Below, in pieces: positions 49,131 to 52,745 of a stretch of 52,745 bases of DNA. This DNA is from Promicromonosporaceae bacterium (GTDB taxonomy: Bacteria; Actinomycetota; Actinomycetes; Actinomycetales; Cellulomonadaceae): positions 1-52,745 of the forward strand of contig WRHK01000025.1 in assembly GCA_009783295.1 (NCBI GenBank), written 5' to 3'. The stretch's first letter is position 1; every line of letters begins with the position of its first letter. The position numbers and the translations under genes were made by a program. A model generated the notes under the pieces. It saw only the letters and a list, made by a program, of their open reading frames with translations. It was not told the DNA's origin and did not search any database.

Positions 49131-50359
49131 GCTGGCTCGAGACCCTCCACACCGGCTGGCAGGCCATCCGGTCGCACGCGACCCGCTCGCTGCTGACGGT
49201 GCTGGGCATCCTCATCGGCATCGCCGCCGTGATCCTCACGGTCGGCCTGGGCCTGGGCACGCAGAAGGACGTCAGCGCGCAGATCAGCTCGCTGGGCTCC
49301 AACCTGCTCATCGTCACGCCCGGCTCGACGACGTCGGCCGCGGGCCTGCGCGGCGGCTTCGGCTCGGCGACCACGCTCACGGTGTCCGACGCCGACGCGC
49401 TCGGTTCCAAGACCGTCGCGCCCGACGTCGCCGCCGTCGCCCCGCAGCGCAGCTCCTCGGAGAGCCTGACGGCGGGCACCAACAACTGGACCACCACCGT
49501 GGTGGGCACCACGCCGTCGTGGCGGGGCGTGCGCTCGCGCACCATGCTCCAGGGCCGGTTCCTCACGGACGCCGACGTCACGGGCCAGACGACCAACATC
49601 GTGCTGGGCACCCAGACCGCGAACGAGCTGTTCGGCACGACGTTCGCCGTCGGGCGCACGGTGACCATCTCCGGCACGGAGTACACCGTGGTGGGCGTGC
49701 TCGCCTCGGCCGGGTCGAGCACCAGCGACAACCTCGACGACACCGCCGTGATCCCGCTGTCGACCATGCAGAACCAGCTGGTCGGCGGGTCGGGCCGCAC
49801 GTCCGTGTCGACGATCTACGTCAAGGCGACCACCACCGACACGATCTCGGCGGCCGACCAGGAGGTCACCGCGCTGCTGCTCAACCTGCACGGCATCACG
49901 AGCGCGTCGAGCGCCGACTTCACCGTCAGCAGCCAGGACGCCCTGGTCAGCACCGCCACGAGCGTCTACCGCACCCTCACCGTGCTGCTCACGGGCATCG
50001 CGGCGCTGTCCCTGCTGGTCGGCGGCATCGGCGTCATGAACATCATGCTCGTGTCCGTCACCGAGCGGACCCGCGAGATCGGCCTGCGCAAGGCGCTCGG
50101 CGCCCCGCCCACGGCCATCCGGCGGCAGTTCCTCACGGAGGCGTCCGTGCTGGGGCTGGCGGGCGGCGTGATCGGCGCGGTGCTCGGCATCGTGGCGGCC
50201 AAGGTGCTGCCCAGGCTGCTGTCCACCTCGATCGTCGTGTCCCCGGCGGCCGTCGTCGGCTCGATCGCCGTCGCGCTCGCCATCGGCCTGGTCTTCGGCG
50301 TCTCCCCCGCCGTGCGAGCCGCGCGGCTCGCCCCCATCGACGCCCTGCGGTCCGAGTGA
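49127..50359 (+). CDS. MacB/FtsX-like ABC transporter permease
   Basis: A 410-residue permease with the MacB domain architecture: TM1 (about [24 protein letters not shown]), a large extracytoplasmic domain with the MacB_PCD pattern (about 50-280), and three C-terminal helices containing the FtsX signature ([41 protein letters not shown]). The LRKALGA loop is conserved in MacB permeases. The ATG overlaps the ATPase stop (ATGA). Together with the adaptor it should form a mechanotransmission-type exporter. Confidence 0.94.
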
Positions 50360-50391
50360 CCCGGGTCCGCACCCTCGGCAAGGAGCTTTCC

Positions 50392-51125
50392 ATGAACCAC
50401 ACCACCTCCCTCCGCACGGCCGGGGTCCTCGGCACGGTCCTGGCCGTCGCCCTCACGCTCGGCGCGTGCTCGGGCGGCGCGTCGGCGGGCGACGCGACCC
50501 CGAAGGCCACGGCCCCCAGCGCGGCCGCGCCCTCCGGCGCGCCGGCCCAGCGCCAGTTCCCCGGGGCGTCCGGCCAGGTCGCGGCCGTGACCGGGTCCAC
50601 GGCGCAGGTGCAGAGCACCGACTCGCAGACGGCCGTCACCTGGACGGGCACCACCAAGATCACCGACGAGGTCGCCGGCACGCTCGCCGACGTCAAGGTC
50701 GGCGCGTGCGTCACGGCCGTCGCCGCCCCGGCCGCGGACGGCGCCTCCTCCGGCGCGACGCCCAGCACGTCCACCCCGCTGGCCGCCACCACCGTGACGG
50801 TGCTGGCCGCATCCAGCGACGGCAGCTGCACCGGCGGGTTCGGCGGCGGGTTCGGTGGCGGGTTCGGTGGCGGCCAGGGTGGCGGCGCGGGTGGCGGCGG
50901 GTTCCGGTTCCGCGGCGGCGCGGGCGGCGGGACCGGCGGCACGGCCGGCACCGGCGGCGGCGGCCGGGCGCAGGGCGCGCGGCCGTCCGGGCGGCCCAGC
51001 GGCGCCCCGCGCGGCGGGTTCGGCGGCTTCGGCGGGGCGGCGTTCGGCAAGGTGACCGCGGTGACCTCGACGGGCTTCACCGTCGCGGAGACGCAGCTCA
51101 CCCGCCCCCCCGGCGGCCCCGCGAG
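50392..51125 (+). CDS. Gly-rich lipoprotein, C-terminus lost at the junction
   Basis: A lipoprotein of at least about 245 residues. The signal peptide [19 protein letters not shown] ends in lipobox LGAC at about Cys26; then comes a Ser/Ala/Pro linker, a small beta-domain ([19 protein letters not shown] to KVGACVTAV) resembling DUF5666-type repeats, and a Gly-rich tract ([18 protein letters not shown]). A second such domain begins [15 protein letters not shown] just before the sequence runs into the 11-C stretch, so its natural end is missing. AAGGAG precedes the ATG. It follows the MacAB operon by 32 bases and may work with it. Confidence 0.75.
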
Positions 51126-51136
51126 CCCCCCCCCCC
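51126..51136. other. 11-C run, probable chimeric junction
   Basis: Eleven consecutive C's separate two sequences with different gene content and codon style. On the left an actinobacterial lipoprotein stops being recognisable; on the right a reverse-strand GH43 protein starts abruptly at the run. Both partial genes end at the same point. Confidence 0.7.
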
Positions 51137-51137
51137 G

Positions 51138-51389
51138 CCGCAAGAAGGCGTCCGCCACGTCGTGGACGGCCAGGGCGATGCCGCCGTTCCGCCAGCGGCG
51201 GCCGTCGCCCGCCACGTAGACGGACACGCCCGTCATGGCGCGGTTGCCCTCGGTTCCGGCCACCTTGTGCTCGCCAAACCAGTACAGGCGCCCGTCGTGG
51301 CGCAGCAGGCCGCCGCCGTGGGCGTTGATGTGCGCCCCGTCCGCGTCCGGCCAGCGCTCGCCATTGACGAAGGGGGGGGGCATGGGCAT
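51138..51389 (-). CDS. GH43-like glycoside hydrolase, N-terminal fragment
   Basis: An N-terminal fragment of about 84 residues. The reverse translation reads FVNGERWPDADGAHINAHGG, then GLLRHDGRLYWFGEHKVAGTE, then GNRAMTGVSVYVAGDGRRWRNGGIALAV, which matches the start of GH43 subfamilies acting on galactans or arabinans (first blade with D-G-x-x-I-x-A-H and W-F-G-E-H). The reading frame is lost where it reaches the 11-C run, so the gene is truncated by the junction. Two ATG codons at 51389 and 51383 could start it. Its codon use differs from the actinobacterial part. Confidence 0.75.
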
Positions 51390-51460
51390 CCTTTGCGGTC
51401 CGGGGGCCCAGGGGGTCCGCGGATTATAGCGCAATCCACCCAAAGGGGACAGGGAGGACA

Positions 51461-52579
51461 ATGGACGGCAAGGAACTGGCCCTGGCCGCCATCGAGGGCC
51501 GGCCCGCGCGGGGGATACCCGCCTGGGAAGCCAACATCATGGAGCACCGGATGATCGACCGGCTGGCCGGCCTTCCGGAGGGCAGCTACGTCCGGGAGCC
51601 GGAGGCCGCCTACATGGCCATGCAGCGCGCGCTGTCGTGCTGAATGGTGGACCAGCAGCTGTGGGACAACCCCCTTTCCATGCGGCAGGACGGCTACGGC
51701 CCGGAGACGGCCCGCGGGGCCACCACGGGCGCGGCCGAGATCGTCCTGGACGGCATGCGGATAGGCTCGCCCGAGGCGGTGGCCGCGCACATCGAGGCCC
51801 ATCTGCTGCCCCAGCGCCAGGCCGAACTGGCGGCCTTCGACGCCGAGGCCTGGGCGGGCTGGGTGGCGGAGGGCGAGCGCGCGGCCCAGGAGCGCCTGGG
51901 CCAGGACATCCTGAAGGCGCCCTACGGCTGGGCGGGTTTTCCGGTGTTCCGGTACGGCCTGTACGGGTACGAGCACTACTTTTCGGCCTGGGCCCTGTAT
52001 CCGGAGGTCATCGAGCGGGAGATGTCCCTCACGGCCGACCTGTGCGCGCTGCGGAACGCCGCGACGGCGCGGGCCATCGTGGAAAACGGCTTGCCCCCGT
52101 ACATCCGCCTGGACTTCGACCTGGCGGACTCGCGGGGGACGCTGGCCAGCCCGGAAAGCCTGGACCGTATATGGCTGCCGCACTTCGCGCGCGCGGTGGC
52201 GCCCCTGGCCCGCAGCCCCGTCCGGATGGTCTGGCACTGCGACGGCAACCTGATGGCCCTGGCGCCGCGCCTGCTGGAGGCGGGGGTCAAGGGCTTCCAG
52301 GGCTTCCAGTACGAGGACGGCATGGACTACGAGGCCATCTGCCGCATGAAGGCCCGCGACGGGGACGACCTGCTGATCATCGGCGGGGTGTCGGTCACCC
52401 GCACGCTGCCCTTCGGCCGCCCGGCCGACGTGGCGCGGGAGCTGTCGTGGCTGGTCCGGCACGGGCCCAGGAACCGGCTCTTCCTGGGCGTGTCCAGCTC
52501 CGTGGCCCCGGGCGCCCCCTGGGAAAACCTGCAGGCCCTGGCCCAGGGGCTGCGGCACTACCGGGAGGGGGGGCGGTGA
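51461..52579 (+). CDS. Uroporphyrinogen decarboxylase-family (UroD-like) protein with in-frame TGA
   Basis: A 372-codon frame from ATG 51461 (after GGGAGGACA) to TGA 52577-52579, interrupted by one in-frame TGA at 51641-51643. Both sides look like one UroD/MtaA-type protein: MEHRMIDRLAGLPEGSYVREP before the stop, and LRLLEAGVKGFQGFQYEDGMDY-like and LLIIGGVSVTRTLPFGRP segments after it. The family includes corrinoid-linked methyltransferase proteins besides heme enzymes; no heme role is implied. The residue before TGA is Cys (LSC). The TGA may be a nonsense mutation, a base error, or a recoded codon. Codons such as ATA (cgt ata tgg) set it apart from the rest of the window. Confidence 0.7.
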
Positions 52580-52583
52580 CCGC

Positions 52584-52611
52584 AATGGACAATGGACAAT
52601 GGACAATGGAC
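52584..52611. repeat. AATGGAC tandem repeat, four units
   Basis: Four consecutive AATGGAC units start 5 bases after the UroD-like stop and end in AATTCC. Such intergenic heptamer tracts are not seen elsewhere in the window. Confidence 0.85.
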
Positions 52612-52622
52612 AATTCCGTGCC

Positions 52623-52745
52623 GTAGGGCGGCAACGCGTTGATGCGAGGTTGCGGCAACCTGCCGCCCCGCGCGGCTGGCGGCTGGCGGCTCGCGGATCC
52701 GCGTTTCCATCCGTAGGGGCGGCAACCTGCCGCCCCGGCGTTGAT
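52623..52745. repeat. GGCGGCAACCTGCCGCC-type hairpin repeats
   Basis: GTAGGGCGGCAACG at 52623, GCGGCA-ACC-TGCCGC at 52652-52666, and GGGGCGGCA-ACC-TGCCGCCCC at 52716-52736 (9-bp perfect stem, 3-base loop) share one core, and GCGTTGAT recurs at both ends. They appear to be dispersed REP-like elements of the second organism. No gene is seen after 52579. Confidence 0.7.

Follow-up and report, generated by a model that had tools for sequence, protein, structure and literature searches.

The window analysed here is a complete contig (C25) of 52,745 bp. It belongs to a draft genome of 119 contigs, with a total of 3,975,351 bp and quality tool figures of 99.98% for completeness and 2.11% for contamination. 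At its left end, positions 4-150 overlap the right end of contig C95 (in reverse orientation, 9718-9864 in L161) at 98% over 147 bases, and the two ends probably adjoin. The present study concerns the right end of the window, where the following features were delineated.

50392-51136, plus strand: lipoprotein gene, 5′ part only (intact homologues in two genomes, remainder on contig C100)
51043-51135, plus strand: stretch recurring as a noisy copy at C100:1-94 (alignment, ungapped shuffle test)
51126-51136, plus strand: run of 11 C, the likely join (homopolymer scan)
51137-52745, no strand: tail of 1,609 bp reaching the contig end, very probably foreign (single copy in the genome, relatives of its protein in MAGs with no actinobacterial title, composition)
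51138-51389, minus strand: GH43-like N-terminal fragment of 84 aa, cut by the join (three plasmid records)
51372-51380, plus strand: run of 9 G close to the start of the GH43-like fragment (homopolymer scan)
51461-52579, plus strand: UroD-superfamily (MtaA/CmuA-like) gene with one in-frame TGA (PF01208, E=1e-7)
51641-51643, plus strand: the in-frame TGA, at a Cys column (alignment of relatives)
52583-52745, no strand: short tandem repeats of CAATGGA type and of CGGCAACCTGCCGCC type (repeat inspection)

Left of the C run, a MacB/FtsX-type permease gene was identified by a Pfam match and an ABC ATPase gene by inspection. The lipoprotein reading frame starts with the ATG at 50392, carries a lipobox that was also recognised by inspection, and is broken at the C run. 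No homopolymer in the window is longer than this run, and only three others have 7 bases or more, C7 at 51105-51111, G9 at 51372-51380 and G7 at 52567-52573, so that all four lie right of 51100, that is in the final 1.65 kb. A preliminary description of this DNA had reported two genes truncated at the same 11-C run, with a shift in gene content and poly-G runs on its right side. We found the same. Both the lipoprotein frame and the minus-strand GH43-like fragment are cut there, the GH43-like and UroD-like genes are the sole genes recognised to the right, and both G runs are located in that part.

The 84-residue GH43-like fragment is 52-55% identical to three plasmid records, of which two are annotated GH43 and one is unannotated; no family model matched it in Pfam or NCBIfam. 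When the segment 50300-52745 was compared by blastn with plasmids, one record was retrieved, with a match of about 92 bases inside a GH43 gene. The neighbouring gene resembles the MtaA/CmuA family by its PF01208 match and by weak matches to TIGR01463, NF004889 and NF040654. It differs from that family in scoring far under the NCBIfam cut-offs (for TIGR01463, 28.7 bits where 235.4 are required, the query being the 311 residues after the TGA) and in bearing an in-frame TGA. Searching the genome with the tail gave no second copy. Apart from itself, the tail matched a single 24-base repeat, a 24-mer of the CGGCAACCTGCCGCC-type repeat that also occurs in a tail of contig C31.

The origin of the tail was examined through the relatives of the UroD-like gene. 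One genome per species was scanned, and the best 80 of 97 loci were kept. These relatives represent many phyla, with top segments at most 61% identical. No actinobacterium is named in the titles of the best 80 of the 97 loci, some of which say just "bacterium". The repeat strings of the tail were absent from the loci of all 80 relatives. Judging from the relatives of this one gene, the most likely source of the foreign piece would be a bacterium, as yet uncultured, of the PVC, Armatimonadota or Chloroflexota type.

Composition and codon use also distinguish the two sides. ATA and TTT codons, which the preliminary description had noticed on the right, indeed appear there, 3 times each in 457 codons, as compared to 0 and 0 in the 902 codons of three left-hand genes; the difference is mild. 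GC3 is 0.952 right of the run and 0.987 left of it. The comparison of composition across the junction that had been proposed was performed with windows of 804 bp, using models trained without C25 and 125 left-hand windows as reference. The two right-hand windows gave z scores of 7.0 and 7.9, equalled by none of the 125 left-hand windows. The window directly left of the join (50333-51136) is mildly atypical, with a z score of 2.4, above all 125 left-hand windows. By itself, composition sets the switch near 51360, about 220 bases right of the C run. The exact breakpoint, at the run, was placed by gene content. Relatives, composition and codon use all assign different origins to the two sides of the junction.

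The in-frame TGA of the UroD-like gene falls at a column that holds Cys in 65 of the 79 relatives covering it (80 examined); the others have S (6), G (3), and A, I, N, T and H (one each). Such a position would suit a corrinoid-methyltransferase-like selenoprotein of the UroD superfamily, in which selenocysteine encoded by TGA 51641-51643 replaces a conserved Cys. No stable hairpin was found in the 60 nucleotides from the TGA (-16 kcal/mol, z=+1.06, with equal or better folding in 177 of 200 shuffles), and the three matches from an Rfam search were all sub-threshold, none of them being SECIS. A TGA at the same column was not seen among the 83 homologue matches listed (43 + 7 + 31 + 2, with genomes partly shared; for the 7, 31 and 2 matches, scoring covered the top 4-6 candidates of each genome). 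Two of the 83 contain a stop: a TGA that lies elsewhere in G753, and a single TAG in G550. The words "uroporphyrinogen" and "UroD" are absent from the main text of a 2026 review of the prokaryotic selenoproteome (PMC13188914). The position of the TGA is thus the one observation that speaks for selenocysteine, which we regard as quite unlikely here. The tail is of doubtful quality, and a one-base error in a Cys codon would equally produce this TGA.

We then searched for the missing part of the lipoprotein gene. Eleven genomes of the genus, including the source genome, were searched, and two of them (G003 and G004) were taken further. Both contain the operon with an uninterrupted lipoprotein gene, and their lipoprotein homologues extend about 90 codons beyond the cut in C25. 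The missing C-terminal part was found in the source genome at C100:92-325 (E=9.9e-14), the sole match at E≤0.001. Moreover, the sequence downstream of the lipoprotein gene in G004 corresponds to C100:108-2372, in four ordered stretches of 68-75% identity. Beyond about 2.4 kb, the downstream sequence of G004 matches contig C18 most strongly, not C100, with 17 weak matches elsewhere.

The first 94 columns of C100 align with 51043-51135 of the window, 67 of them being identical. The differences are concentrated at the start, the first 70 columns holding 24 of the 27, and C is the new base in 15 of the 26 substitutions. After this noisy stretch the coding frame of C100 is clean. In an ungapped comparison within the lipoprotein gene, the C100 copy gave 59 matches, whereas 100 dinucleotide shuffles averaged 46.7 and reached 52 at most. 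With blastn against all contigs, 53 of 500 shuffles gave some match at least as good as the C100 overlap, the shuffles being allowed to match C100 itself; three shuffle matches reached 40 bits on the exact overlap site. When the flanks from C25 and C100 are fused at their common GCGAGCCCC, a single open reading frame results. We take the pair of stretches, from their alignment, as the failed overlap of two truly adjoining contigs. C100 crosses the breakpoint without foreign DNA, and C100:1-2372 supplies the continuation in the same assembly; therefore, the real adjacency is C25-C100. As the noisy, insert-free copy on C100 completes the gene, an uninterrupted copy exists in the same assembly.

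A similar situation was observed at the right end of contig C80. An SMC gene is broken near C80:14569-14613, and its N-terminal part sits at the left end of C75. Positions 5-114 of C75 are an 85% copy of C80:14478-14588 (an overlap of 111 columns), in which 14 of the 16 substitutions are to C. The tail at the right end of C80 (L146, 14569-15206) contains a TetR-type gene. With a gene cut at a G/C-rich stretch, an odd tail and a noisy overlap, the C80/C75 pair is an independent repeat of the C25/C100 defect. Contig C31 switches near 41.9 kb into a tail with autotransporter and YdjC-like genes (about 11885-15110 of L109, which is C31:30000-45109). A glycosyltransferase gene leads into this tail, and a C-terminal part of a glycosyltransferase was found at the right end of C55. 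An overlap between C31 and this likely partner end was sought and none was clear. C31 is a probable second chimera, with C55 as a partner that is only suggestive.

Further tails were found on C88 (L154, 1-3456), where an aminotransferase V gene adjoins a TusA-domain gene, and at the start of C105 (L170, 1-1469), which bears UvrD and AIRS genes. By composition, C61 (L127, 1-721), C56 (L227, 1-961) and C60 (L217, last 1059 bases) also have foreign-like tails. In total, 134 ends were scored, the 119 contigs having 238, and 14 of these 134 (11/117 + 3/17) exceeded a foreign-like tail score of 100. Six of the 14 (C25, C31, C61, C80, C88 and C105) were training data and eight are independent. Relatives of known title were compared for the C25 tail; composition and gene content suggest that the other tails are foreign as well.

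The distribution of long G/C runs was then considered. Thirty runs of at least 8 were counted in 117 terminal stretches of 200 bp, spread over 20 of the 117 ends (1.28/kb), as compared to six in 831,894 interior bases (0.0072/kb). The ends are thus about 180 times denser in such runs. All six interior runs lie within 1.7 kb of the end of a tail-bearing contig, and one of them is the C11 run of C25; the junction is thus of low complexity, of a kind that can produce a false overlap. In addition, 30 of the 117 ends overlap the end region of another contig over at least 90 columns, at least two of the 30 being G/C junk on G/C junk. The ends of C61 (L127, 718), C66 (L132, 111) and C115 (L179, 88) have GCTCTATCTCGCGGTC in common; in all three, this site is the boundary between G/C-rich junk and better sequence.

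Overall, the data indicate, with a probability of about 97%, that the right end of the window is an assembly chimera and that the chromosome continues from about 51125 into C100, within the same lipoprotein gene. The final 1.6 kb of C25 very probably come from an unrelated bacterium and were attached by the assembler at the C run. The preliminary description had proposed a misassembly or a library chimera, and the remainder of the gene on C100, the C80/C75 repeat and the other foreign-like tails all support this proposal.

Its two variants can be distinguished to some extent. In the second of them, a molecule made of two organisms, by ligation or by PCR, would have arisen during library preparation and been followed by the assembler. 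Such a molecule would give the same two-genome junction, and tails with various genes would be expected. However, junctions of this kind should be scattered at random. The G/C runs and the tails instead sit at contig ends, and the true partner ends are noisy as well. This grouping of runs and tails favours a false join made during assembly over a library chimera, which is an outside possibility.

A recent insertion had also been considered in the preliminary description; foreign DNA would then really have entered the lipoprotein gene by horizontal transfer. If taken alone, the location of the gene remainder on another contig would suit an insert with an unassembled far end. However, C100 crosses the breakpoint without the insert. 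Host sequence should resume after an insert and no uninterrupted copy should exist, but the tail takes up the rest of the contig and the C100 copy, though noisy, is uninterrupted. Foreign-like tails at other contig ends, the uninterrupted gene in both of the same-genus genomes examined, and a tail with GH43-like and UroD-like genes as its sole recognised genes also argue against an insertion. The remainder on C100, the matching downstream sequence and the insert-free overlap led us to reject this explanation, which is very unlikely. A mixture of strains, one carrying the insert and the other, represented by C100, lacking it, would account for the 27 differences in the first 94 columns but not for their concentration in the first 70, their bias to C, the clean frame that follows or the like signature of the C75/C80 overlap (14/16 to C), and is hardly credible.

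We therefore return to the false join made during assembly, for which the following sequence of events may be proposed. Reads across the C-rich stretch would have borne G/C-biased errors, and the same data would have contained a contig from an unrelated organism with a similarly C-rich end. True overlaps such as C25-C100 would then have failed, while C-rich ends from different organisms were falsely accepted as overlapping. In this way the assembler may have fused C25 to the foreign contig through the common C run, bypassing C100. Across the 30 overlapping ends, substitutions are to C in 51 of 93 cases at left ends and to G in 31 of 80 at right ends. This bias suggests a gain of G in outward reads. 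Dark cycles in two-colour sequencing would yield such a gain. For two-colour poly-G chemistry as the source of the noise, the evidence is mixed; the substitution bias agrees with it, but the long homopolymers at right ends consist of C in 8 cases and of G in 3, an orientation that disagrees.

The region 51126-52745 is to be trimmed before any biological reading, as an artefact of sequencing and software. Through contigs of this kind, a genome with acceptable standard quality figures comes to include foreign genes, and these genes may pass for horizontal transfer. A homopolymer join, a true remainder at the end of another contig and a noisy overlap copy are signs that can be used on other drafts.

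Chimeric contigs that join different species occur in assemblies of metagenomes or mixed samples. C25 is like them in combining two organisms, in having genes cut on both sides and in its low-complexity join near a contig end. There is no difference in principle between C25 and such contigs, and the noisy copies of the true overlaps make the present draft a clear example of them.
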